A stretch of 41,018 nt of DNA, taken from positions 1-41,018 of the forward strand of contig JAKQQP010000348.1 of NCBI GenBank assembly GCA_029564115.1, read 5' to 3'. Positions 9,770-25,951 of this stretch are shown here, in pieces; positions within the stretch are counted from its first letter, which is position 1; each line of letters begins with the position of its first letter. Below the pieces are notes generated by a model. It did not search any database, was not told the DNA's origin, and saw nothing but the letters and a program-made list of their open reading frames with translations. A program made the position numbers and the translations under genes. This stretch comes from Candidatus Rifleibacteriota bacterium (GTDB lineage Bacteria > Riflebacteria > Ozemobacteria > Ozemobacterales > Ozemobacteraceae).

Positions 9770-10381
9770 TCAGTTTTTTAGAGTTCCGTGAATAGAACAG
9801 TGAAAAAGGCGGCGCCCGTCTTTATAGATGATTGAATAGCGCCCGCCTCTCGGGCAGGTCGGGATTTCCTGGAGCGCTCCAATTTTTATCAGCTCGTCAG
9901 AATCGAATTTTGTCATGCGTGACCCGCTTTTTCTGTCATAGTACAGGACAGCGAGAATAAGTGAGCGCATTCTTGCGAAACACTTCAGTCTGAAGTCTTT
10001 CTCGTATTCTTCGACTTGTTTCAGGCTTTCAGTGAAGTCTGTTCTGGCGCGATTGTAATTTTTAAACAAATCGCGATCTTTGCGCGTGTTTATTTTTGTG
10101 GTGTCAGCCGAGCCTATTTTTTGGATCAGATCCAGGTAAGAGGCCTGAAACTGTTGATGTTTTTTCTGAAACTCCAGGCGCTCCAGAAGATTCCTTTTTT
10201 CGTCCGAACCGTCGCCGCTGTCGATTGGTCGTATCTGAGCAGGCGGCTTTGACGGAATATAGGGCTCAGGATTGCGCCTGTTTATCACGAGGGTTATCAG
10301 GTAAGCAAGAAAGGCCAGAGACAGGAAAGCTGTCCCAAGCCAGATCGCGTGCTTAGCTGAAAAAAATACTTTACTTTTCAC
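9770..10381 (-). CDS. Membrane-anchored protein with pilin-like C-terminal Cys motif
   Basis: 203 residues. A single membrane anchor lies at about residues 13-34, followed by a proline-rich stretch (PEPYIPSKPPAQIRP), a charged, probably coiled-coil region (about 60-130), and a compact C-terminus. The end reads IPTCPRGGRYSII, then about ten residues, then FHCSIHG. This 'CPxGGxY...CSxHG' pattern is seen in C-terminal disulfide loops of many small type IV pilin-like and pseudopilin-like proteins, but this protein lacks a prepilin peptidase site at its N-terminus. Function unknown; a link to the pilin operon at 33-37 kb is speculation. Confidence 0.7.
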   Translation of the reverse strand: MKSKVFFSAKHAIWLGTAFLSLAFLAYLITLVINRRNPEPYIPSKPPAQIRPIDSGDGSDEKRNLLERLEFQKKHQQFQASYLDLIQKIGSADTTKINTRKDRDLFKNYNRARTDFTESLKQVEEYEKDFRLKCFARMRSLILAVLYYDRKSGSRMTKFDSDELIKIGALQEIPTCPRGGRYSIIYKDGRRLFHCSIHGTLKN

Positions 10382-10465: not shown

Positions 10466-10495
10466 TTGTGAAGTTATCTGTTGCTGTGATATAAT
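10466..10495 (+). promoter_or_regulatory. Sigma70-type promoter for the FHA-ATPase/kinase/phosphatase operon
   Basis: -35 TTGTGA at 10466-10471 and a perfect -10 TATAAT at 10490-10495, 18-bp spacer. Predicted transcription start is near 10502, the first base of the tRNA-like leader, giving a 5' leader of only about 27 nt. Confidence 0.7.
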
Positions 10496-10528: not shown

Positions 10529-11707
10529 ATGTCGGACGACTCAAAAAAAACCGTCTTTAGAAAAGTGGTTGTGACAGAGGAGTTGAAGAAGAAATTTCTG
10601 GTTGGCAATACGCCACCATTCCTTGGTAAACCATTTGAACTCAACCCCGCACAGGTTTTTACGATAGGGCGTGAAGAAGGCAGAACTCTGCAGTTGCCCA
10701 GTGAGATGGTTTCGAGACTGCATGCCAGTATCGAAATCCAGGATGGGAAATGCGTTCTGACCGATAATGACAGTTCGAACGGCACTTTTTTGAATAACGA
10801 GCAAATCCCTGCAAATAGTGCTTTTACCCTCAACCACCGGGATGTAATCAAATTTGATACTTTTGAATTTATTTACGTCGATACTGCAGTCGGCGATCTC
10901 TGGCAGACTCTCAAGCCTCTTTCCCGGGAAGGCTCCCAGATTGTTTCGTTTTATAGCCCAAAGGGCGGTACAGGTATCAGCACCATTGTCGTCAATCTTG
11001 CCAAAATTCTCGCTGAAAAATCCGATAAAAAGGTTGCGGTTGTCGATCTTGACCTGCGTTTCGGCGATGTCCTGACTTTCCTGGTTGGCAAGCCGGCGAC
11101 CTCGATAATCGAAGTGATAAGAGAACAGGAAATCACTCCGGACAACATTCAAAATTTTATGCAAAAAGGGCCGGGCTTCGACTACCTGCCTGCCCCCAAA
11201 AAGACGGAGCTTGCAGAACTGGTTACAGCTCAGCATGTTAAGGCTATTCTCTGGAGCCTCGAAGCCAAATACGATTTTGTGCTGGTTGACCTCAAGACAG
11301 AGATCGATGATGTAACTATCACTGCCTGGGAGCTTTCCAATCTCATATTCCTGGTCGGGCAGCCTGAAATCGGTCACCTGCTGGCAGCCAGACGCGTTAT
11401 TGAAATCATGAATACGTTCAAGTTCCCAGAGACCAAGTTCAAGGTTATCATGAACAAGGTTGGCCGTGAAGGCACCGTGACAGGTGAAGAAGTGAAGGCC
11501 TTCCTCAAGAAAGAAGTTCTGGTTCTGCCGTATTGCCCTGACGACGCGGTGGTCACTTCAAACGGCGGCAAGCTGCTGCTCTCCGAAAAATCCAGTTCCC
11601 CCTTGACACAGGCAATAATAAATCTGAATAAAACAGTTGTTGGCGAAGAAGTGGTCTCTGAATCCGGCGGTATTTTCTCCAAGCTCAAGTCGATTCTGGG
11701 CTTTTAA
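10529..11707 (+). CDS. FHA-domain MinD/CpaE-like ATPase with degenerate Walker A
   Basis: 392 residues, cytoplasmic. N-terminal tail with a Thr motif KKTVFRK (T8), then an FHA domain at about 43-112: GR (47-48), S62-R63-x-H65 and N84-G85, the residues that bind phosphothreonine. A linker leads to a SIMIBI ATPase at about 138-350 of the MinD/CpaE/TadZ type. Its P-loop reads SPKGGTGIST: the signature lysine K145 is present, but the lysine that normally contacts the phosphates is I150. Other features are VVDLDLRFGD and VLVDLKTEIDD. The C-terminus is a short amphipathic helix, GIFSKLKSILGF, like MinD membrane-targeting tails. It is first in an operon with the kinase (10 bp gap) and phosphatase, so it is a likely kinase substrate and reader. 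Confidence 0.88.
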   Translation: MSDDSKKTVFRKVVVTEELKKKFLVGNTPPFLGKPFELNPAQVFTIGREEGRTLQLPSEMVSRLHASIEIQDGKCVLTDNDSSNGTFLNNEQIPANSAFTLNHRDVIKFDTFEFIYVDTAVGDLWQTLKPLSREGSQIVSFYSPKGGTGISTIVVNLAKILAEKSDKKVAVVDLDLRFGDVLTFLVGKPATSIIEVIREQEITPDNIQNFMQKGPGFDYLPAPKKTELAELVTAQHVKAILWSLEAKYDFVLVDLKTEIDDVTITAWELSNLIFLVGQPEIGHLLAARRVIEIMNTFKFPETKFKVIMNKVGREGTVTGEEVKAFLKKEVLVLPYCPDDAVVTSNGGKLLLSEKSSSPLTQAIINLNKTVVGEEVVSESGGIFSKLKSILGF

Positions 11708-11717
11708 GGTAATCTGA

Positions 11718-13523
11718 TTGGCTGATTATTCTAATAAAAAGGCCGGCAACTACACCATCACCCGAAAGCTTGGCGACGGTGGTTTTGCTACGGTTTATCT
11801 TGCACAGCACACAGTTCTCGAGAAAAAAGCCGCTGTTAAGTTTCTGCTTGAAGACTGGATCGACGATGCTGACGTGGTTGCCCGTTTTTTTGACGAAGCA
11901 CGAACCATGGAGCGATTGCACGATCACCCCAGCATAGTCAAGATTATCGATATTGCGACTTTTGAAAAGTGCAAAGAAGAGGGTTTGCCGCCATACTTCA
12001 TTATGGAATACATCGATGGCCGCTCTCTTGAAGATTTGATAAAGAGCAGTGAAGGTTTTACCCTTGACGACATCGTAAAGATAATGGTTTGCGCCTTGTC
12101 GGCATTGCAGCATTGCCATGACCAGGGTGTTGTCCACCGTGACATAAAGCCCAGCAACTTTATGATCAATTCTTCCGGCGATGTTAAACTTACCGACTTT
12201 GGCATAGCCAAAGCCTGCAAAAATACCAGCAAAACCGGTGAGGGGCTGACTCTTGGTTCTACAGATTACATGTCACCAGAACAGGCTCTCGGCAAACGCG
12301 ATCTTGATTATCGCTCAGATATTTATTCACTGGGAGTGACGTTGTATCAGCTCGTCTGCGATCGATTGCCATTCGTCGGCGACAGCCCGAATGCCATTGC
12401 TCTCAAACACATCCAGGAAAAACCGGTTCCGCCCATAGAGCTCAACGATGCTGTGCCGAAACGGCTGAACGATATAATTCTAAAAGCCATGCAGAAAGAT
12501 CGTGAACACAGGTTCCAGTCCTGTGATGAAATGCTGCAGGCTCTTATTAAACTCAACGAACCTGGTGAAGACGTCGAGCTTGTTTCAGAAGTGAGCGCCA
12601 TAGATTTGACTGCCGCCAGGCCCGAAGCCGATGATGACGCCTTTTCTCAGGATTATGATCATGCAACTGGCTCTACTACCAGAAAGTTTGCGGCTAGACC
12701 CCCGGTAGAGCTTATCAATGCCATAAGAACTGGTTTGATTTTTGTTGGTTTTACCATTTTGTTTTTGCTCGTTTTTAAAGGGTACTATCACTTTACCCAG
12801 GCGCATCTGAAGTTCGAAACATACCCACCAGGGGCTTTCGTGACCTTAAACAAAGACTTGATCGGAAGCAGCCCGGTCGATATTTCTCTGCCTCCGATGG
12901 GGTATTTGATCAGTTTTTCGTTGCCAGGTTTTGCCACGGCTACGTTTTATTACGATGTCGTCGCTCGCCAGCATCTCGATCTGAACATCAAAATGCTCGA
13001 GCTGAGCCCGAAATCGCTTGGGCAGTTTCATGAGCAGATGAATCAGATTGCCGGGCTCTTGCGAAGACTCCCGGAAGAACCGCCCAAAACAAAAAAAGAT
13101 CAGGCAGCTTATGACGAGTTGAAGGCAAAAATTGCCCAGGAATGGGAGGCTCTCTACAAGATATACTCTGAATATGCTGATTATGAAGAATTTCACTCTG
13201 CGTTTTTAAAGTTCTGCACTCAGACTTCAAACCTGAAAAAAGCAGAGGCGTTTTTATCACGCCTGTCGCAAGAGAGACCTTCAGCGATCGTATTCACTTT
13301 TGCCGGCTTACTCAAAAAACAACAGAACGACAGAAAAGAAGCCCTGAGACTTTTCATGGAAGCCTGGACCAAAGATGCCAACAATCGGTTTCTGCTGAAT
13401 ACTCTCGGAGAATTCTTCGTCGAGGATCAAAACCAGGAAAAAGCCAGACAATACTATGAGATGTCATTGTTCTTATACCCTGAACAGAATGAGATCAGAA
13501 AAAGGATTGCCGAACTGAAGTAA
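11718..13523 (+). CDS. Transmembrane Ser/Thr protein kinase with PEGA and TPR-like regions
   Basis: 601 residues from a TTG at 11718 with AAGGT upstream; no ATG is available before the kinase core. The PknB-type kinase domain (about 11-280) is complete: G19-x-G-G-F (Gly-rich loop), K41, HRDIKPSN (catalytic D142), D160-F-G, activation segment ending STDYMSPEQ, and R265 region EHRF. An acidic/Thr-rich juxtamembrane linker (about 285-335) precedes one membrane span (about 337-355). Outside, a PEGA domain (364-427: YPPGAFVTLNKDLIGSSP) is followed by a helical, TPR-like C-terminus (about 440-600). It should phosphorylate cytoplasmic targets such as the neighbouring FHA protein in response to envelope signals. 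The phosphatase gene begins 11 bp later. Confidence 0.93.
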   Translation: MADYSNKKAGNYTITRKLGDGGFATVYLAQHTVLEKKAAVKFLLEDWIDDADVVARFFDEARTMERLHDHPSIVKIIDIATFEKCKEEGLPPYFIMEYIDGRSLEDLIKSSEGFTLDDIVKIMVCALSALQHCHDQGVVHRDIKPSNFMINSSGDVKLTDFGIAKACKNTSKTGEGLTLGSTDYMSPEQALGKRDLDYRSDIYSLGVTLYQLVCDRLPFVGDSPNAIALKHIQEKPVPPIELNDAVPKRLNDIILKAMQKDREHRFQSCDEMLQALIKLNEPGEDVELVSEVSAIDLTAARPEADDDAFSQDYDHATGSTTRKFAARPPVELINAIRTGLIFVGFTILFLLVFKGYYHFTQAHLKFETYPPGAFVTLNKDLIGSSPVDISLPPMGYLISFSLPGFATATFYYDVVARQHLDLNIKMLELSPKSLGQFHEQMNQIAGLLRRLPEEPPKTKKDQAAYDELKAKIAQEWEALYKIYSEYADYEEFHSAFLKFCTQTSNLKKAEAFLSRLSQERPSAIVFTFAGLLKKQQNDRKEALRLFMEAWTKDANNRFLLNTLGEFFVEDQNQEKARQYYEMSLFLYPEQNEIRKRIAELK

Positions 13524-13534
13524 CGGGAGGAAGT

Positions 13535-14296
13535 GTGCGCTACTCTGCATATGGTAAGACGCATGTGGGCAAGGTTCGCGACCACAACGAAGACTCTTTT
13601 TTCGTTTCTGAAAAAGATGGCTTTTTCATTGTCTCCGACGGCATGGGGGGTCTTGCCCAGGGCGAAGTGGCTTCTCAGATTACGCGTGATGCCATCAGCT
13701 CCTTTTTGAGCGAGGAGCACGATCCGTCTGTTCCATATGATAAAATTTTACGAGAAGCTTTCAGCCGCGCTAATCACAAGGTTCGCCGCTTTCTTGAAGA
13801 ACACCCATCACCCAAGGGGATTGGCTGTACATGCGTTGTTCTTGCTTTCAGAGAAAACGATTTTTATATTGCCTATGTGGGCGACAGCAGAATTTATCTG
13901 TTTCGAAACAATGTATTGAAGCAGATCAGCCGCGATCATTCATACGTTGAAGAGCTTTTTCTGCGTGGGTTGATAACCGCCGAAGAAAAGGTCGATCACC
14001 CGTATAAAAATTCAATTACCAGATACATCGGCCTTGCTGATACGGTTGAAGTTGATATTACCTCTGGGCCGGCTGCCAACAACGATATTTTTATTCTTTG
14101 CTCGGATGGCCTGACCGGAGAAGTCGAAGATAAATCGATTGCCGAAACTTTGCAACAGAATCTCGAGCCCGAACAGCTCGTTGAAGGCTTAATGCAAAAA
14201 GCTCTCGACGGCGGTGGCGGTGATAATATTTCTATTATTGCCGTGAAAGTAGAAAAGAAAAAGCCAGGCTTTTTTCGCAAGCTTTTTAACTGGTAG
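13535..14296 (+). CDS. PP2C-family Ser/Thr protein phosphatase
   Basis: 253 residues from a GTG at 13535 with GGGAGG six nt upstream. PPM/PP2C metal-binding motifs are in order: VRDHNEDSFF (residues 14-23), SDGMGG (34-39, metal Asp D35), VGDSRIYLF, SRDHSYVEE, ILCSDGLTGEV and GGGDNISIIAV. It should reverse phosphorylation by the preceding kinase, the usual bacterial kinase/phosphatase pairing. The last residues, KKKPGFFRKLFNW, form a basic, aromatic amphipathic tail not needed for the catalytic fold, similar to the tails of both flanking MinD-like ATPases, and could tether it to the membrane beside its kinase. Confidence 0.95.
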   Translation: MRYSAYGKTHVGKVRDHNEDSFFVSEKDGFFIVSDGMGGLAQGEVASQITRDAISSFLSEEHDPSVPYDKILREAFSRANHKVRRFLEEHPSPKGIGCTCVVLAFRENDFYIAYVGDSRIYLFRNNVLKQISRDHSYVEELFLRGLITAEEKVDHPYKNSITRYIGLADTVEVDITSGPAANNDIFILCSDGLTGEVEDKSIAETLQQNLEPEQLVEGLMQKALDGGGGDNISIIAVKVEKKKPGFFRKLFNW

Positions 14297-14320
14297 CAGT
14301 AATTGAGTTGGTTGCTGGCT

Positions 14321-15535
14321 TCAGATTCCGAGCACTTCTTTTAGAAGTGAGAACATGTTCCAGGTGCCTTTTTCTATTTCTTCGCCGGTGAGGCTGGCGC
14401 ACAGCTTTCTCATGGCTACAAAAATAGCCGTACCGTCGCTGCTTTTCGACAAAACAAACGGCATGCCCTGGTTTACCGAGGGTACCACAATATTGCCTTC
14501 GCTCGGGATAAAATGGCTGACCGCATAACGCAATGACTTTTCAACCTTGGCCGGCTCGAGCCCCATAGATTTGAATGCCCGGTTGAGAACGACTTTAATT
14601 TTTTCCCGCGGAATTTTTGATCGTATCAAAAGATCGAGCAATAGCTTGGTATTTTTTATGAAAGTCAGCTCCATGGTCATGACCAGCATAATCAGGCTGC
14701 TGTTGTCGAAAATGCGCAACTCAAGTTCTGTAAGCTGATTGTGAGTGTCGATAATTATAAAATCGTAATGAGGCTTGAGAACTTCGATGATCTGCTCGAC
14801 GAAATCGGGGGTAATGGTTTCTGCCAGCTCTGGCAAAGGAGGAGACAGAAGAACTTTAAGGCCTGATGAGTGCTGAGTAAGCTGCTTTTCGACTTTCGAC
14901 AGCTTCATTGGCCCGGAACCCTCGAGAAGGTTGTGTATGTTTTTCTCCGGGGTCAGGCCGAGGAGTATGCCCTGATCGCCAAATGCAAGGTTGAGGTCGA
15001 GAAGCACGACTTTCTTCTTCCAGAAGCGGGCCAGCATGGTAGCAACATTCGAAGAAATAACCGACTTGCCGGCGCCACCCTTGACATTGAAAAAAGTGAC
15101 GACCCTGGCCTCCTGCTCTCTGCTCTCACCTTCTTCAAGCAGTTGCGGGGCACGGCGGGCGTAAAGTTCTCTCGCCTCTCTCGCAAAGCCGGGGTAAAGC
15201 CCGATGAGACGCAATACCGTCTCTTTGGGGATAAACATCAGGTGAAATTCCTGATAGCCGATGAGAGTCGACAGGGCACTGGTACCGTTTAGTATTTCGA
15301 CTTCACCGTATATATCGCCCGGGTCAAGATTGAAAAGGGTGGTTTTTCGCTCTCCGGCAGTTTTGATAGCCGATAACTGCCCCTCTACAACTATTATCAG
15401 ATCATCGAATTTTTCTTTTTCGATGATTACTCTGGTACCCGAAGCGTATCTTTGAAAGCGACAGACTTTTTTGAGTCTTTCGTGTTCACGCGTCGGTAAA
15501 GTATTGAGAACCGCAAAAACCTTGAAGTCGATCAT
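14321..15535 (-). CDS. cNMP-fold/MinD-CpaE-like ATPase fusion
   Basis: 404 residues. The N-terminal cyclic-nucleotide-binding fold (about 8-125) has the beta-roll motifs IIVVEGQLSAI and LDPGDIYGEVEIL, but where the phosphate-binding cassette normally has 'PR-x-A' this protein reads GTSALST, so the cAMP/cGMP-contacting Arg is missing. After a short charged linker comes a SIMIBI ATPase (about 145-390) with a complete deviant Walker A, NVKGGAGKS (K152 and K157 both present), VVLLDLNLAFGD and IIIDTHNQ. The C-terminal tail NMFSLLKEVLGI resembles that of the FHA-ATPase at 10529-11707, its paralog. It is convergent with the phosphatase gene (24 bp gap). Probably a signal-responsive positioning ATPase; ligand unknown. 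Confidence 0.88.
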   Translation of the reverse strand: MIDFKVFAVLNTLPTREHERLKKVCRFQRYASGTRVIIEKEKFDDLIIVVEGQLSAIKTAGERKTTLFNLDPGDIYGEVEILNGTSALSTLIGYQEFHLMFIPKETVLRLIGLYPGFAREARELYARRAPQLLEEGESREQEARVVTFFNVKGGAGKSVISSNVATMLARFWKKKVVLLDLNLAFGDQGILLGLTPEKNIHNLLEGSGPMKLSKVEKQLTQHSSGLKVLLSPPLPELAETITPDFVEQIIEVLKPHYDFIIIDTHNQLTELELRIFDNSSLIMLVMTMELTFIKNTKLLLDLLIRSKIPREKIKVVLNRAFKSMGLEPAKVEKSLRYAVSHFIPSEGNIVVPSVNQGMPFVLSKSSDGTAIFVAMRKLCASLTGEEIEKGTWNMFSLLKEVLGI

Positions 15536-15673: not shown

Positions 15674-16900
15674 ATGATGAAGATGCTTCAAAAAATACTG
15701 CCCGTAACCATTGCGCTGGCAGTGCTCAGCGGGTTGCCGGCTTTTGCCAAAACTCCTTTCTCAGAAAATTCGGTGAAGTTGCAGACAGGGGCTTCCGCTT
15801 CTGCAGACAGCAAGGCCAAAGTCACCTCAGCTTCGAAAAAAGAGTCATTTTCAGTAACCGTGTCGCTGGCAGAAGCTCTGAATATTCGCAAGTCACCCTG
15901 GGGGGATATCGTCGGGAACCTCAAAAAAGGTGATAAAGTCACTGTCACCGGCTCCATTGGTGACTGGTATAAAATATCCCACAAAGGCAAAACCGCTTAT
16001 ATTCATTCAGCTTATGTTCTGAAACCCGGCGAAAAGGCCAAGCCTTTTCCGAACGCAGGTTACGTTAACTGTACGGCCTTGAATGTTCGCCGTGTGCCGA
16101 ATGGCGATATTCTCAGTCAGATAAAAAATGGTCAGAGAGTGCAGATACTCGGAGTTGCCGGCGATTGGTACAAAATCAGATGGGGCAACAACGAGGCTTT
16201 TGTGGCCAAACGTTATATTGACAGCGATAAACCAGTTGCAAAGCCCCAGAATCCGTATGATTTTACCGGTTATGTGACTGCCAGCGCCCTCAATGTAAGA
16301 CATGCGCCCTGGGGCACCATCGATACCACCATTGCCAACGGCACAGCCGTCAAAGTTGTCGGAAAACAGGGCGATTGGTACAAGATCAGCTTCAATGGCA
16401 AAACCAGATATGTGCATTCAAGTTATATTTCCAAGACCAAAAGCACTGCCCCGAAGACTTCGACTCCCCCTGTCGCTGCCTCCGGTAATCTGCAAAAACG
16501 CATTGTGGCAGAAGCACGCGCTCTCATTGGCAGCACCGCGTTCAGAACTTCAGATGTCGCCGGTGGTACTCTTGCATGCGCCAAAGTTGTGACCACGGCA
16601 CTCAAGAATGCCGGTGCCCTGAGCAAAGTGCACCTTAATGTGAGATCAACGGTTGCCGACCTCAAATCGAAAGGCTGGAAAGAGGTAAGCGTGCCTCCCT
16701 TCGCTGAAGGCGACGTCATCACCTGGAAAACATACGATTATACCGGTGACGGTGTAAAAGACCCTGATACACACGTGGGTATCATGGTAAAAGAGGGTAA
16801 CAGTTACAAAGCGATGAACAATTCATCTTCGTTGCGAACCCCAAGATTGTCTGATCCCTACTCGGTCGGCCCGATTACACGAGTTCTCAGAAAGGTTTAA
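15674..16900 (+). CDS. Secreted protein with three SH3b repeats and an NlpC/P60-like C-terminal domain
   Basis: 408 residues; AGGGGG precedes the tandem ATGs at 15674/15677. A signal peptide ends near PAFAK (about residue 26). Three bacterial SH3 repeats of about 50 residues follow (roughly 62-115, 125-178, 195-250), each with the L-N-[IV]-R start and GDWYKI core. A linker rich in Thr/Pro leads to a C-terminal domain (about 273-408) with LACAKVV (C302), EGDVITW and DTHVGIMV (H367), the Cys/His arrangement of NlpC/P60-type peptidoglycan endopeptidases. It probably binds and cuts wall peptides in the periplasm. The catalytic assignment is from motif spacing only. Confidence 0.8.
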   Translation: MMKMLQKILPVTIALAVLSGLPAFAKTPFSENSVKLQTGASASADSKAKVTSASKKESFSVTVSLAEALNIRKSPWGDIVGNLKKGDKVTVTGSIGDWYKISHKGKTAYIHSAYVLKPGEKAKPFPNAGYVNCTALNVRRVPNGDILSQIKNGQRVQILGVAGDWYKIRWGNNEAFVAKRYIDSDKPVAKPQNPYDFTGYVTASALNVRHAPWGTIDTTIANGTAVKVVGKQGDWYKISFNGKTRYVHSSYISKTKSTAPKTSTPPVAASGNLQKRIVAEARALIGSTAFRTSDVAGGTLACAKVVTTALKNAGALSKVHLNVRSTVADLKSKGWKEVSVPPFAEGDVITWKTYDYTGDGVKDPDTHVGIMVKEGNSYKAMNNSSSLRTPRLSDPYSVGPITRVLRKV

Positions 16901-18718: not shown

Positions 18719-19882
18719 TTAGCGGCGCTGGTAGATAAAGAACTCCTGCCGCGCCATGGCGAAGTTTTCCGTGCCTTTACAGGCTTTTTTTAAGATGTCA
18801 GAGGGCTTCTCGTCGGCGAGAAGCCCTTTTCTTATGAGGCTTGTCCCGGCGAGATAGTCAATGAAAGGTTTTTCAAGGCCTGGACGACCCGGAAATGCGA
18901 CCTGGCCAGGATGTGTTTTGATGAGTGCATAAAGTGCGGCGACTCCTGTGTAAACAGCATTGTCTATGCTTCTGGTAAGACTTTTCAGGTTGATACCGCA
19001 GCATTTTTCTCCGGCGCATTTTCCAAAATCGGGTATGAAGCTTGTTGCTTTGACGGTAATGTTGTCTGGCAGTAAGTCTTGCAGGCACCCGGCCCATTCC
19101 TTGCCGTTCACCCATGGCGCACCAAGGTTTCTGAAGGGTTCGTCCGTGCCGCGTCCTTCTGAAAGCTCTGTGCCTTCAAAAAGACAAGTGCCGGGGTAAA
19201 AGGCCGCAGTCATCGTATCAGGCATGCTGGGTGAGGGTTTGAACCACGGAAAATCGAGATCATCGAACAGGCTGGGACAATAATAACCCTGACAAGGGTA
19301 TACTTTCACCTCTGTCTGAATATTAGCGGTTTTTTGCCACCAGAGGGCGAGCTCCCCCGGAGTCAGTCCGTAACGCAGAGCTATGGGAAGATGCCCGACA
19401 AATGAAGACAAATCTTGCTCAAGCATCGGGCCCTCGACGACGACGCCCCCCAGCACATCGGGTCTGTCGAGAACTGCTACCGGCAGACCTGTTTCGCCAG
19501 CTGCGTCAAGAATATTTCGCAGGGTCGAAATGTAAGTGTAGAATCTTACTCCTACATCCTGAATGTCGTAGACGAGCAGATCGATGTCTTGCAGTTGTTC
19601 TGCCGTCGGTTTTTTGCTTTGGCCGTAGAGGCTGACGATATCTACGTTCAGTTCCTGGTGATGCGAGCTTGCTACGTGTTCACCGTCGGGTGCATCTGAA
19701 TCGAAGCCGTGTTCCGGCGTAAAAATTCGTTTGAGCTCAAAACGATTGTCTGCTGCCAACCTTCTCACAAGGTGAACCCCATGACGGTCACGTCCGGTGA
19801 AGTTGGTTACAACGCCGATTCGTAGCCTGTTAGCTGAAAAATTTGTTGCAAAGAAAGTTTCAAGGCCAGGGGAAAAACTCAT
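18719..19882 (-). CDS. DUF1343/NamZ-like exo-beta-N-acetylmuramidase
   Basis: 387 residues from ATG 19882, chosen because it overlaps the folC stop as ATGA; a 40-residue in-frame extension upstream lies wholly inside folC. DUF1343 motifs are clear: GVVTNFTGRD, RIFTPEHGF, LLVYDIQDVGVRFYTYISTL, VLDRPDVLGG, PSPSMPD, CLFEGTELSEGRGTDEPF. Characterised members (NamZ) release terminal MurNAc from peptidoglycan fragments. Family members are often exported, but no signal peptide is seen here, so it may act in cytoplasmic wall recycling. Linked to folC by translational coupling. Confidence 0.88.
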   Translation of the reverse strand: MSFSPGLETFFATNFSANRLRIGVVTNFTGRDRHGVHLVRRLAADNRFELKRIFTPEHGFDSDAPDGEHVASSHHQELNVDIVSLYGQSKKPTAEQLQDIDLLVYDIQDVGVRFYTYISTLRNILDAAGETGLPVAVLDRPDVLGGVVVEGPMLEQDLSSFVGHLPIALRYGLTPGELALWWQKTANIQTEVKVYPCQGYYCPSLFDDLDFPWFKPSPSMPDTMTAAFYPGTCLFEGTELSEGRGTDEPFRNLGAPWVNGKEWAGCLQDLLPDNITVKATSFIPDFGKCAGEKCCGINLKSLTRSIDNAVYTGVAALYALIKTHPGQVAFPGRPGLEKPFIDYLAGTSLIRKGLLADEKPSDILKKACKGTENFAMARQEFFIYQRR

Positions 19883-21153
19883 TTTCTGTCGAGTTCCTTT
19901 ATTGCTTCTGAAATCAGATAGAGAGAGCCAGTAGCCAGCACTGTGCCGCAGTCTGACCGGCATTCTGCGAATGCGGCGGCAAAACTGTCGAACCATTGCC
20001 ATTTTTCGGGCAGAGGAGTCGATTCGAATTCTTGTCTGCTAATGGTTCTTGAACAGGGTGGGGGAACAAAGCAGAGCTTGTGCCCGAACTCTGAAAGTTT
20101 TTGGGCCATCTCTTCAAGGGGCTTGCCTTTGAGGGCGCCAAAAATTACGTTAAGTGGCGGCTTGGGAGGGAAATTTTTGAGATAGGTTACCAGTGACTCG
20201 AGACCTTCGGCGTTGTGAGCTCCGTCAAGCAATACGGGTGGGTTGCCAGGCAGCCATTGAAGTCGACCAGGCCATCTGGCGCTGGCAATCCCTTTCTGAA
20301 CAGCTTCATCCGGGATGTCGAAGCCGTTTTTTCTCATCTGGTTAACGAGTTCAATTGCTATTGCAAGGTTGTCAAGCTGGTGTTCACCCGGCATGGCCAT
20401 GAATAAAGGCTCTTCTGTGTTTGCTAGTTTGATGAGATGACCGTCATGTCGGCTTTCGATGACTTCGAAGTATTGATCGGGGCGAGCAACAACCAGCGGA
20501 CTGTTGAGTTTTTCGCAGGCAGCGGCAAATTCTCCGAGAATTTCAGGGGATTTTTCGCCGGTCACCAGTGGGCGGTTTTTGCGCAGAATGCCAAGTTTTT
20601 CACGGGCAATGGCCAGTTTTCCGGTGCCGAGAAATTCCTGATGGTCTGTGCCGATATTGGTGATGACCGAAACCTCAGGGCTGCAGGCATTGGTCGAATC
20701 GAATCTGCCTCCGAGGCCCACTTCCACTATTGCAAGATCTATTTCTGCTTCGTTGAAACCCCAGAAAGCCAGCGCCGTGACGGTCTCAAAAAAGTTAGCC
20801 GGTCCGATCGAGGCTTCTTTTTCCATTATTTTGTTTACTTCCTGTATTGTCTCAGTGCCTTTGCACCAGAGATTGTCAGGCATGGGTCTACCCTGTATTT
20901 TGATGCGCTCGCGCAGGTCGGTCAGATGAGGCGAAGTGAAGCTGCCTGTTACGTAGTCGGGGCATTGGAGCATTATTGACTCGGTTATGGCTGTGACTGA
21001 GCCTTTGCCGTTTGTGCCGCCGATAAGCACGCAGGCGTAATTGTGGTGGGGACTTTTAAGCTCTTCAAGCAGGAAATGTATACGGTCCAGGCTGTATGGG
21101 CCGGTTCGGGTACCTCTGTCGAGTAACCATCTGGTAGCGTCATTAATTTTCAT
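19879..21153 (-). CDS. folC: Folylpolyglutamate synthase/dihydrofolate synthase
   Basis: 424 residues from ATG 21153, favoured over an ATG nine nt upstream because GGAAG then has proper spacing. The Mur-ligase-like ATPase motifs are visible: the P-loop IGGTNGKGSVTA near residue 45, SFTSPHLTDLRERI, LAIVEVGLGGRFDSTN, VITNIGTDHQEFLG and the C-terminal domain entry LLDGAHNAEG. It adds glutamate to dihydropteroate/folates. Complete, with family-typical length. It is upstream of and overlapping the NamZ-like gene, and divergent from the PBP1A gene. Confidence 0.95.
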   Translation of the reverse strand: MKINDATRWLLDRGTRTGPYSLDRIHFLLEELKSPHHNYACVLIGGTNGKGSVTAITESIMLQCPDYVTGSFTSPHLTDLRERIKIQGRPMPDNLWCKGTETIQEVNKIMEKEASIGPANFFETVTALAFWGFNEAEIDLAIVEVGLGGRFDSTNACSPEVSVITNIGTDHQEFLGTGKLAIAREKLGILRKNRPLVTGEKSPEILGEFAAACEKLNSPLVVARPDQYFEVIESRHDGHLIKLANTEEPLFMAMPGEHQLDNLAIAIELVNQMRKNGFDIPDEAVQKGIASARWPGRLQWLPGNPPVLLDGAHNAEGLESLVTYLKNFPPKPPLNVIFGALKGKPLEEMAQKLSEFGHKLCFVPPPCSRTISRQEFESTPLPEKWQWFDSFAAAFAECRSDCGTVLATGSLYLISEAIKELDRK

Positions 21154-21202
21154 TCTTTGCATCTTCCGTCTGTTGCAGTGATTTCAGGGCATTAACGAGG
21201 CC

Positions 21203-21252: not shown

Positions 21253-21313
21253 ACTCTTGATCTTGAAAATGCCGATTGGTTTATTGTACTCTGTTGCAAC
21301 AGGATGGTGTGTT

Positions 21314-23782
21314 ATGCTTTTTTTTAATGACGAAGACCCAGAAGAAATCGAAGATCCCGAAGAAAATGACGAAGAGAATGACGAAGAGAACGAGTCCGAG
21401 ACGGTAACTCAGAAAGTTGTCGGCTGGCTGTGGTTCTTTTTTAAACTCGGGTTCGTTTTCAGTGTCATTTCAATAATTATTATTACAGGTGCCGTGATTG
21501 GCATCGTCAAAGGTTTCTCTGAGAAGATTCCAATTATTGCTGATAATTCTTACAGACCCAATTTGACTTCACAGGTCTTTGACTCCAAAGGAAAATTACT
21601 GGCCAAGCTGCATGCCGAAGAGAATCGTATGAGCATTCTCTCAAGCCAGGAAATCCCTGATATAATGAAACACGCGGTCGTTGCAATCGAAGACGAGCGC
21701 TTCTATGAACACTATGGCATAGACCTCGTCGGTATTGCCCGTGCCATGACCAGAAACATTCAGGCCGGGAGAGTGGTGCAGGGGGCCTCTACCCTGACTC
21801 AGCAGCTCGTTAAAAATGCTTTTCTGACAAGCGAAAAGACGTTCAAACGCAAGGCTATCGAGGCGATGATGGCTTTTCAACTCGAGCGCAAATACTCAAA
21901 AGAAGAGATTCTCACCCTCTATCTCAATGAAATCTATTTTGGGCACGGGGCTTACGGTCTTGCTGCCGCCGCCGAAATTTATTTCGGCAAAAACCCAAAA
22001 GAGCTCACCATTGCAGAATGTGCAATTCTTGCCGGGATCCCTAAAAGCCCGGTGGCGTTTTCCCCGTTCAGAAACCCCAAAAACAATGAAAGCCGGCGAG
22101 CTCTTGTTTTGGCCAAAATGGTTGAACTTGGCTTTATAACGCCTGCGCAATACGAGGAAGCCAAAATCGAAAAACCGGTGCTGAATGAATTGAAGGCTCA
22201 AGAAGTAAAGGCACCGTATTTTGTAACATATGTCAGAGATCAGTTGCTCGAAAAATACGGCGCTAATCTCGTCTATTGTGGTGGTCTGAAAGTTTATACC
22301 ACCCTCGATCTCGAATTTCAGGAGTATGCAGAGCAGGCTATGGCTTCGGCGCCCATATTCAAAGAATATCCGATCGAGAAATACCCCGGTTTGAACGGTT
22401 CTCTTGTCTGCCTTGATCCTAAAAATGGTTATATCAAGGCTCTTTATGGCGGTAGAAGCTTTGAACAGTCTCAATTCAACAGGGTTACGCAGGCCTACAG
22501 GCAGCCCGGTTCTTCTTTCAAGCCATTCGTTTATGCCTGTGCCCTTGAAGAGGGCAGTTTGCCCAGCGACATGATTCTTGACGAGTATATTTCCTATACC
22601 AACCCCTGGACAAGAAAAGTCTGGTCGCCAAAGAATTATGACCTTAAATACCATGGCAACGTCACGATGATGAAGGCATTGTGCAAAAGCTTCAATATCC
22701 CGGCTGTGAAATATATAGACAAGTTGACACCGGCCAAAGTTATCAGGTTTACCAAAAGACTGGGGGTAACCTCGTCGATGGAACCCAACCTTTCGCTTGC
22801 TCTTGGTTCGGGGCAGTTCACCCCCCTCGAAATGGCTTCTTCCTATGGCGTGTTCGCCAATGCTGGTATTTATTGCCGTCCGCTTTCGATTCTCAAGGTG
22901 GTTGACCGTGATGGTAACATTCTCGAAGAGAATCTGCCCAAGGCAAAAGAGGTTATGAAAGCTGCCAATGCCGTAATGATCGCCGACATGCTTCGCATTG
23001 CGGTTGAGCGTGGTACCGGCGCCAGAGCACGCATCCCCGGTAAGGTGATCGCCGGAAAAACGGGGACGACCAATGACTATGTAGATGCGTGGTTCAACGG
23101 TTTTACCCCAGACCTGGTGACCATAGTGCAGTTCGGCTTCGATATGCCTAAAACCCTCGGAAAAGGTAAAGCCGGTGGTTCTGTTTGTGGCCCGGTCTGG
23201 AAACAATTTATGGAAAAAGTTCTGAAAAAATATCCCAACAGTGATTTTCCCGTGCCCGATGGCGCGGTGCGCTGCAGGGTGTGCATGACCAGCGGCAAAC
23301 TGGCCTCCAGAGGGTGCCCTGGCAACGAAGTCGTTTTGCAGGTCTTCCCGATAGAGTCGCAGCCTTTGGTTGAATGCCGGCATGGAGCGGCAGCTGTGAC
23401 CGTGGCGGCTTCGAACGGCTATGAAGCTGAAGATACTGATGCGATTGCCGGCGATGCGGGCTTTATGCCTGACCCGGATTTTTTCCAGGGCAGTTATCAG
23501 GCTGGTGCAGCTCAGCCGGTTAAGCGACCAGTCGCCGGAACCTGGATTTCCAGAGATAACCCGAATACAGCTGTTCTACAAAGCCTGAACACTCCGTCTG
23601 TTGCAGCAAGAACCCCAGATGAGGCGTTTCTAGATGACGATCTGGCAAATGCCCCGGCTGTTGAAGAGGACGAACCAGTTCCCGCTGTTCGCCCAGCGCC
23701 ACCCGCCAGGCCCACAGTCCGGGAGCCGGGTGTAGTCATTCCCCCCGCTCCACGCGTTGAATTCCGTGATGATTATAACTGA
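21314..23782 (+). CDS. Class A penicillin-binding protein (PBP1A-type)
   Basis: 822 residues from ATG 21314 (AGGATGG upstream); an in-frame TTG at 21257 would add 19 residues and is less likely because it coincides with the predicted transcript start. A very acidic cytoplasmic head (about 25 Glu/Asp/Asn residues) precedes one membrane anchor. The GT51 glycosyltransferase follows: EDERFYEHYG, QGASTLTQQLVKN, RKAIEAMMAFQLE, LYLNEIYFGHGAYG. The transpeptidase has SSFK (S-x-x-K in QPGSSFKPF), SFN (S-x-N) and KTGT. A family-typical C-terminal Cys motif (C-x-x-C..GKLAS..CP..ECRHG) is present, then a disordered Pro/Ala tail. It polymerises and crosslinks peptidoglycan at the inner membrane. Confidence 0.95.
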   Translation: MLFFNDEDPEEIEDPEENDEENDEENESETVTQKVVGWLWFFFKLGFVFSVISIIIITGAVIGIVKGFSEKIPIIADNSYRPNLTSQVFDSKGKLLAKLHAEENRMSILSSQEIPDIMKHAVVAIEDERFYEHYGIDLVGIARAMTRNIQAGRVVQGASTLTQQLVKNAFLTSEKTFKRKAIEAMMAFQLERKYSKEEILTLYLNEIYFGHGAYGLAAAAEIYFGKNPKELTIAECAILAGIPKSPVAFSPFRNPKNNESRRALVLAKMVELGFITPAQYEEAKIEKPVLNELKAQEVKAPYFVTYVRDQLLEKYGANLVYCGGLKVYTTLDLEFQEYAEQAMASAPIFKEYPIEKYPGLNGSLVCLDPKNGYIKALYGGRSFEQSQFNRVTQAYRQPGSSFKPFVYACALEEGSLPSDMILDEYISYTNPWTRKVWSPKNYDLKYHGNVTMMKALCKSFNIPAVKYIDKLTPAKVIRFTKRLGVTSSMEPNLSLALGSGQFTPLEMASSYGVFANAGIYCRPLSILKVVDRDGNILEENLPKAKEVMKAANAVMIADMLRIAVERGTGARARIPGKVIAGKTGTTNDYVDAWFNGFTPDLVTIVQFGFDMPKTLGKGKAGGSVCGPVWKQFMEKVLKKYPNSDFPVPDGAVRCRVCMTSGKLASRGCPGNEVVLQVFPIESQPLVECRHGAAAVTVAASNGYEAEDTDAIAGDAGFMPDPDFFQGSYQAGAAQPVKRPVAGTWISRDNPNTAVLQSLNTPSVAARTPDEAFLDDDLANAPAVEEDEPVPAVRPAPPARPTVREPGVVIPPAPRVEFRDDYN

Positions 23783-25267: not shown

Positions 25268-25951
25268 TTATTGCATTCCTGCAATTGCCTTTGTTTTTGT
25301 CTGAAGATCCTGGAGAAGCGATTCAATTTTTTTGGCTTCCTGGGCAGAATCTTCGGCAAGTTTCTTCATTTCGGCAGCTACAACCGAAAAGGCGCGGCCG
25401 GCTTCACCAACTCTGGCAGCTTCAATCGAGGCATTCAAAGAAAGCAGGTTACTTTTACGGGCAATTTTGGTGATAACTCTGATTACGTCTTCCATCTGGT
25501 TGGTTGAGGCTTCTAGTTCTTTGAGATGAATGTTGGTCGCGCGTAACCGCTCAGTAGTCAGCTTCAGAATCTGAAAAGAAATTTCAGGGATTTCTGAGAG
25601 GAGACTGCGGAAGTCGTCTTTGGTAATGATCAAAAAAGCGCTTTCTTGAATAGTTTGCACCGAAGCGGAACGGGGCTGTTCGTCGATGATGGCCATGTCA
25701 CCGATAACAGCGCCCTTGCCGAGAGAGACAAGGACAGAGTCGATCCCGGAATTGTTGCGCTTGAGAATGTTTACTTTGCCGCTTTTAACTATATAGAGAG
25801 CATCGCCCTTGTCGCCTTCTTTAAAGACAATGGTTTTAGGCGGAATAAGCTGTTCAATGGTGATTGCCGACAGATCAAGAAGCGCCTTGTCAGAAAGGCT
25901 TCTGAAAAGGGAGACCTGCCTGAGAAATTGTATTTTATCCAGTTCAGACAT
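25268..25951 (-). CDS. Cytosolic cNMP-fold protein fused to a chemoreceptor signalling tip
   Basis: 227 residues, no membrane segment. Residues about 10-130 form a cyclic-nucleotide-binding fold with [20 protein letters not shown] and a near-canonical phosphate cassette, [16 protein letters not shown] (G84-D85 and P93-R94-S95-A96; Asp in place of the usual Glu). A helix (about 125-158) continues into a methyl-accepting chemotaxis hairpin tip: [20 protein letters not shown] and [20 protein letters not shown], the segment that binds CheA and CheW. Only about 70 residues of the hairpin are present, versus well over 200 in ordinary receptors. No chemotaxis genes are nearby. It could feed a cyclic nucleotide signal into chemoreceptor arrays, but this is inference. 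Confidence 0.85.

Follow-up and report, generated by a model that had tools for sequence, protein, structure and literature searches.

A conserved kinase, phosphatase and MinD/CpaE-like ATPase gene block in Candidatus Rifleibacteriota with a possible role in envelope growth

The 41,018-nucleotide stretch of Candidatus Rifleibacteriota DNA analysed in this work (contig JAKQQP010000348.1 of assembly GCA_029564115.1; hereafter the window) contains a block of four genes. Three genes on the forward strand encode an FHA domain fused to a MinD/CpaE-like ATPase (FHA-MinD), a transmembrane (TM) Ser/Thr kinase, and a PP2C phosphatase. The fourth gene is convergent and encodes another MinD/CpaE-like ATPase with an N-terminal cyclic-nucleotide-binding fold (cNMP-MinD). 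The stable unit is the three-gene operon together with its usual neighbour, cNMP-MinD. We tentatively propose, at a probability of roughly 0.4, that the block is a phylum-specific module for threonine phosphorylation at the membrane surface, built around MinD/CpaE-like ATPases and acting on envelope growth. The parts, gene order, conservation, and residue states behind this proposal are directly observed in the sequences.

Layout and conservation of the block

The FHA-MinD gene (10529..11707, forward strand) encodes 392 amino acids (aa) that comprise an FHA domain (about residues 22-118), a MinD/CpaE-like ATPase fold (137-371), and an amphipathic tail (GGIFSKLKSILGF), with Ile150 at the site of the P-loop lysine. 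Its Pfam matches, both above cut-offs, are FHA (59.6 bits) and AAA_31 (45.6 bits). The kinase gene (11718..13523, forward strand) starts with TTG and encodes 601 aa with a PknB-like kinase domain (12-274), a juxtamembrane linker, a single TM stretch placed by eye at about 340-360, and a PEGA and TPR region that probably lies beyond the membrane. Its Pfam matches are Pkinase (178.5 bits), PEGA (28.5 bits, cut-off 20.8), and TPR_19 (27.2 bits, cut-off 25). The Stp1-type PP2C gene (13535..14296, forward strand) encodes 253 aa that score 63.1 bits in Pfam, above the cut-off, and end in an extension resembling a MinD tail (KKKPGFFRKLFNW). The cNMP-MinD gene (14321..15535, reverse strand) encodes 404 aa with the N-terminal cyclic-nucleotide-binding fold, a MinD/CpaE-like ATPase domain with intact KGGAGKS, and a tail (WNMFSLLKEVLGI); its matches above cut-offs are cNMP_binding (42.0 bits) and AAA_31 (40.1 bits). 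The intergenic gaps are 10 bp between FHA-MinD and kinase and 11 bp between kinase and PP2C. The convergent gap between PP2C and cNMP-MinD is 24 bp, and a search of this gap for a terminator found none. A promoter-like site (TTGTGA-18-TATAAT, 10466..10495, forward strand) lies upstream of the trio and is a consensus match only. An earlier sequence-only reading of this DNA had placed and described the four genes in the same way, and Pfam and NCBIfam bear out the domains it named.

The species genomes were scanned with the cNMP-MinD alignment, which gave 15 true loci (L001-L015) and an unrelated one (L016). The tallies over 15 loci depend on loci found via cNMP-MinD; a search of 39 genomes, from the phylum of one of the 15 loci, is independent of that. 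The order FHA-MinD, kinase, PP2C is kept in all 15 genomes, complete in 13 and split by contig ends in two. The complete trio is found in L002, L003, and L005-L013, and also in L025 and L026, which lie at another place in the genomes of L014 and L015. L001 and L004 have kinase and PP2C, and FHA-MinD is found at the end of another contig (L049 and L048, respectively) with the same outer neighbours. The cNMP-MinD gene is convergent with PP2C in 13 of the 15 genomes. In L013, the four genes stand together, and a check of the 10 kb around them found no SH3 protein, NHL genes, NamZ, Mur ligase, penicillin-binding protein (PBP), DegP, or counterpart of the protein encoded at 9770-10381 in the window. 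The association of the block therefore exceeds inherited regional order. Conservation across species makes a chance neighbourhood very unlikely, and this explanation was rejected. The claim of a linked phospho-signalling and MinD/CpaE-like ATPase module is thus upheld among relatives.

The search of the 39 genomes identified FHA-MinD at E <=1.3e-150 in 18 genomes, with the next matches at paralogue level (about 1e-52). It identified cNMP-MinD at E <1e-200 in 15 genomes, all among the 18 with FHA-MinD, with the next matches at about 1e-65. The three extra genomes have FHA-MinD followed by kinase; L047 runs on into PP2C and L046 ends near the kinase. Among the matches listed (120 of 255), the full orthologues are from Candidatus Riflebacteria, Rifleibacteriota, or Ozemobacteraceae, with a few from records named 'bacterium' or 'uncultured bacterium'. 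Beyond the full orthologues, the scores fall sharply to REC-type CpaE proteins. The homologue searches beyond the phylum were seeded on exact 5-residue words, one of them scoring 7997 candidates, and are not exhaustive for FHA-MinD fusions.

Two minor observations concern these loci. The records of L001 and L003 are titled Erysipelotrichia and Methylomirabilis and carry the Riflebacteria block (cNMP-MinD 78% and 72% identical), so they are probably mislabelled metagenome-assembled genomes. In L014 and L015, the genes flanking cNMP-MinD encode an LPG_synthase_C protein and a 952-aa protein, which belongs to the clostripain family in L014.

Residue states, folds and tails of the four proteins

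The FHA-MinD alignment has 82 rows, namely 84 matches (P0121-P0204) minus three shorter than 330 aa, plus P0213. The FHA residues G47, R48, S62, H65, N84, and G85 are each kept in at least 81 of the 82 orthologues. We take the conserved GR, S..H, and NG to be the phosphothreonine-binding set of FHA domains, so these residues fit predicted phosphothreonine binding, and the earlier assignment of a phosphothreonine reader is supported to that extent. The signature lysine (K145) is kept in 82/82 orthologues and the P-loop lysine in 0/82, where the site is Ile (52), Leu (27), or Val (3). The AlphaFold model of FHA-MinD (mean pLDDT 80.2) exhibits a beta-rich N-terminal domain and a MinD fold, and its nearest solved fold is the ParA-family ATPase 3ea0, followed by MinD. 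FHA-MinD may serve as a membrane adaptor that is blind to ATP, or it may be a non-standard binder similar to TadZ; sequence alone does not decide between the two. A laboratory precedent for the proposed state is given by Bacillus subtilis MinD K16A, which does not bind ATP, is monomeric, and is released slowly from the membrane according to an excerpt of PMC13246001.

All 83 matches (P0001-P0083) were used in the cNMP-MinD alignment. The signature lysine is kept in 83/83 orthologues and the P-loop lysine in 82/82 scorable rows (one row has a gap), so Walker A is intact. CRP-type domains presumably carry a cyclic-phosphate-holding arginine at a site that is Leu in 82/83 and Cys in 1/83 orthologues (site placed by eye from the GE motif). 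The absence of this arginine makes classical cAMP or cGMP binding doubtful. Of the second input suggested in the sequence-only reading, the fold is thus present and the case for a cyclic-nucleotide signal is weakened. The AlphaFold model (mean pLDDT 72.5; residues 308-359 and the tail below 50) matches cyclic-nucleotide domains, with 3ea0 and FleN lower in the list.

The kinase motifs HRDxKPxN and DFG are kept in 16/16 rows, and the best match of the kinase among PDB sequences is PknB. The block kinase scores below the PASTA-kinase model NF033483 (326.7 vs 450 bits) and has PEGA and TPR in place of PASTA repeats. The phosphatase passes the NCBIfam Stp1 model NF033484 (237.3 vs cut-off 230 bits) and matches the PppA structure 6jkv. 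A D[LI][ST] motif in the kinase linker (16/16 rows) was considered as an FHA docking site and is not proposed because the last position is Ser in nine rows and Thr in seven.

The commonest FHA-MinD end is GGIFSKLKSILGF with near variants, and the commonest cNMP-MinD end is WNMFSLLKEVFGL with near variants, as compared over the 12 commonest ends of each family; P0203 and P0204 have a longer FHA-MinD end than usual. The PP2C end FFxKxxxW is found in 12 of 16 rows (for example KKKPGFFRKLFNW). The PP2C of L006, L008, and L009 has a related stretch ahead of an acidic extension, and that of L010 has none that is clear. These tails are presumably similar to the membrane tail of MinD. In a test of 33 window genes, the tails of the two ATPases are the only ones with both the helical moment and the mean hydrophobicity at 0.60 or above, and they differ from their shuffles at p 0.038 and 0.029. 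In sequence and conservation, the ATPase tails would fit a MinD-like membrane-targeting amphipathic helix.

The tree of the ATPase domains (47 rows) came with a program warning about long branches. In it, one clade each (100/100) is formed by FHA-MinD, by block cNMP-MinD, and by REC-type CpaE. FHA-MinD groups with five degenerate cNMP-MinDs of the phylum (96/92); the program flags this join as one where long branches meet. Immediately outside this group is another cNMP-MinD clade (86/85). Block cNMP-MinD falls with the REC-type and outside CpaEs (88/90). The two block ATPases look like distant relatives placed together and not sister paralogues; a lineage-specific duplication as the source of both is not supported by this tree. 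The term paralogous, as applied to them earlier, holds at the level of the ATPase superfamily and not for a sister relationship. The phylum thus has an enlarged set of MinD-like ATPases that differ in their sensor domains. The loci L027, L029, L030, L032, L033, L035-L037, L039, L040, and L042-L044 belong to two other cNMP-MinD clades. The cNMP-MinD of L027 adjoins YtfJ-like and DAGK genes (Pfam), and L030 and L044 have a similar YtfJ-like neighbour by eye.

Proposed mechanism and alternative explanations

The neighbourhood of the block includes several cell-wall genes. The SH3 protein (15674..16900, forward strand; three SH3_3 domains and a signal-peptide-like start by eye) is divergent from cNMP-MinD and adjoins it in 12/15 loci. 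A NamZ exo-muramidase (18719-20002, reverse strand), a Mur-ligase-like protein (19879-21162, reverse strand), and a class A PBP (21257-23782, forward strand) are also encoded near the block. The PBP lies within the flanking stretch examined in 9/15 loci, and contig ends truncate two of the loci where none was seen (L001 and L005). Although the trio is elsewhere in L014 and L015, cNMP-MinD still has the PBP and the 9770-10381-type protein nearby, with a different gene order. That protein (9770..10381, reverse strand) is a frequent neighbour, is divergent from FHA-MinD, and appears by eye to be anchored in the envelope by a TM stretch or lipobox. It has an N-terminal TM stretch, a lipobox-like sequence by eye in L011, L012, L014, and L015, a conserved C-terminal end (CPxGG..YS....CSxHG) that we take to recall pilin-like proteins, and no match in Pfam.

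In the mechanism that we propose, the kinase would sense the envelope state from its PEGA/TPR side and would phosphorylate its own threonines or those of membrane partners. The tail of FHA-MinD would keep this protein at the membrane, where it would dock on the phosphothreonine. With no P-loop lysine, FHA-MinD would depend mainly on phosphate binding, and not on a normal ATP cycle, for its membrane and partner state. A similar tail would place the phosphatase at the same surface to erase the mark, and cNMP-MinD would be the ATP-cycling member, gated by its cNMP-fold domain. Acting via neighbours like the class A PBP, the module would most likely determine where or when peptidoglycan is made. 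Both the identity of the target and any contact between the two ATPases are speculative. If true, the fused phosphothreonine reader of the module would link a MinD-type surface organiser directly with eukaryotic-type kinase signalling in a little-studied phylum. The module would also be a testable case of envelope signals leading to spatial control in the absence of MinCDE, and it would exemplify a MinD relative that has given up the P-loop lysine and kept the signature lysine.

A more specific version, which we consider quite unlikely, makes the two ATPases a mixed MinD pair. In this pair, cNMP-MinD would bind ATP, FHA-MinD would bind none and would give its signature lysine in trans, and threonine phosphorylation read by the FHA domain would set the moment at which the pair closes on the membrane and steers envelope growth. 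If true, the pair would be a phosphorylation-gated hetero-MinD system among sensor-fused MinD ATPases (REC, FHA, and several cNMP clades) in a lineage where MinCD was not found.

Several observations weigh against the proposed envelope-growth module. No target phosphothreonine was identified for the FHA domain. The genome-context comparison suggested in the sequence-only reading, where unlinked genes would count against the block, kept the trio together in 15/15 genomes, whereas cNMP-MinD is unlinked in 2/15 (L014 and L015, the two most divergent) and L045 has a divergent kinase adjoining FHA-MinD, after which the remaining half kilobase of contig contains no PP2C. The cNMP-MinD gene was not found in three of the 18 FHA-MinD genomes, where FHA-MinD is on contigs of 4.5 to 5.1 kb. 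No PBP is present in the flanking stretch of four full-length loci (L006, L009, L010, and L013), L013 has the four genes without any cell-wall neighbours, and the cell-wall linkage may be plain regional synteny. The PP2C tail does not exceed its own shuffles (p 0.157), so conservation and resemblance are what speak for it. Three other window proteins exceed all three tails in moment at lower hydrophobicity. Loss of the P-loop lysine also need not abolish ATPase activity, by analogy with Liberibacter CpaE, which reads KGGVGSS and has lost this lysine (excerpt of PMC8513845), and with Eubacterium rectale TadZ, which is said to retain ATPase activity without both lysines (excerpt of PMC10482377). 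FHA-MinD is accordingly described by the loss of its P-loop lysine and no longer as a plain dead ATPase, since ATP binding or activity has been described for CpaE/TadZ relatives with such losses. As a side observation, the REC-type Tad CpaEs of the phylum read KGGVGRT, with arginine for the P-loop lysine, in four of the five loci examined (L028, L031, L034, and L038) and KGGVGKT in L041.

The sequence-only reading had named pili as an example of the cell-surface machines that such ATPases position. In a pilus explanation, the module would position or time a type IV or Tad pilus-like machine, with both ATPases recruiting its base in the manner of CpaE/TadZ once phosphorylation permits. Their ATPase domains are CpaE/TadZ/MinD-like, and according to an excerpt of PMC13170226, Caulobacter CpaE belongs to the MinD family, has an amphipathic helix at its C-terminus, and is modelled as dimers around the pilus motor. 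The genomes are rich in T2SSE matches (at least 15 to 32 per genome in 15 genomes, G001-G015) and in N_methyl pilin-signal matches (at least 81 to 137 per genome in nine genomes, or one per 44 to 78 kb). In L013, two prepilin-like genes are found immediately upstream of cNMP-MinD, and single ones are seen in L009, L025, and L026; a regex scan for prepilin signals missed the visible L009 case and was not used as a count. However, pilin signals are so common in this pilin-rich phylum that some are expected near the block. A CpaF homologue (phmmer, E up to 1e-3) was found in 0/17 block loci, in 0/13 other cNMP-MinD loci, and nowhere in the window, compared with 5/5 REC-type control loci. A scan of the 17 block loci for the T2SSE motif was negative; with a looser pattern, the scan was positive in four of the five controls. 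Neither block ATPase carries the REC domain of CpaE/TadZ in Pfam; FHA and cNMP_binding are found there. Control of a pilus is therefore unlikely, and a direct Tad component was rejected since no CpaF lies beside the block. Given the lack of CpaF and T2SSE at the block and the frequent cell-wall neighbours, envelope growth is preferred over pili with modest confidence.

It is somewhat improbable that the block consists of two separate neighbouring modules, with the trio as one system and cNMP-MinD acting alone with the PBP and SH3 genes. The separate location of cNMP-MinD in L014/L025 and L015/L026, the lack of a sister relationship between the ATPases, and the convergent orientation, which does not make one operon, agree with such a division. 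However, cNMP-MinD adjoins the trio in 13 of 15 species, and one of these is L013, where no other flank gene tested was found in the stretch examined. The full cNMP-MinD match (E <1e-200) is also present in 15/18 genomes with FHA-MinD and in 0/21 without (Fisher p 3e-8, uncorrected for kinship); five of these 21 have weaker, mostly ATPase-only cNMP-MinD matches (1e-60 to 1e-65).

A replacement of MinCDE, in which FHA-MinD and cNMP-MinD would place the division site in a lineage without MinCD, is highly improbable. MinC_C is over its cut-off in 0/18 relatives (with two weak partial matches below it, in G012 and G013) and in 6/14 controls, the MinD equivalog TIGR01968 is over its cut-off in 0/18 relatives and 5/14 controls, and the block ATPases have MinD-like tails. 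These ATPases nevertheless fall below TIGR01968 (63.7 and 63.0 vs 212.9 bits), and 16/18 genomes have another MinD-like protein (312-402 aa, 117 to 136 bits) that scores nearer MinD. No known division gene is among the conserved neighbours tested, and many bacteria without MinCD also lack such a module.

The threonine-phosphorylation switch of the type VI secretion system (T6SS), with PpkA, PppA, and Fha, has the same three activities, and the 6jkv match of PP2C is to PppA. In Acidovorax citrulli, PpkA reportedly works together with Fha when the T6SS is assembled and positioned (excerpt of PMC12607579). However, the sheath gene VipB was found in 0/18 relatives (only Escherichia coli matched among 14 control genomes), and the FHA protein of the block is a MinD fusion. 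This explanation has a negligible probability and was rejected on the absence of the sheath gene in 18/18 relatives.

Comparison with known systems

The block and the PpkA-PppA-Fha system both encode a TM Ser/Thr kinase, a PP2C, and an FHA reader together; they differ in that the FHA domain of the block is fused to a MinD/CpaE-like ATPase and the kinase has a PEGA/TPR part. In CpaE/TadZ of Tad pilus systems, as far as the available excerpts describe them, an N-terminal regulatory domain, a deviant Walker A ATPase, and a C-terminal amphipathic helix are likewise found, and loss of the P-loop lysine is known there too. In contrast, the block has an FHA or cNMP fold in place of REC and no CpaF beside it, whereas the REC-type CpaEs of the phylum lie beside CpaF in 5/5 loci. 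The block ATPases share with MinD the fold and presumably the tail type, and differ by an extra sensor domain and, in FHA-MinD, by the lack of the P-loop lysine. The mycobacterial PknB, PstP, and FHA proteins (FhaA, MviN) reportedly control cell-wall growth. The block shares with PknB/PstP/FhaA a PknB-like kinase, an Stp1/PstP-type PP2C, an FHA reader, and cell-wall neighbours. It differs in a kinase without PASTA, in a MinD-like ATPase as the FHA reader, and in belonging to another phylum.

Titles and abstract beginnings in the open-licence literature gave no description of this arrangement, in agreement with the earlier statement that the four genes were not known as a described system. This literature also gave nothing for Rifleibacterium, nor for CpaE together with an FHA domain and the Tad pilus. 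Kinase-phosphatase-FHA modules are already known, and what we rate as new here is such a module with a MinD/CpaE-like ATPase as the reader.

Elsewhere in the window, the gene at 25268-25951 (reverse strand) encodes 227 aa in which a cNMP-binding domain is fused to part of the signalling domain of a chemotaxis MCP.

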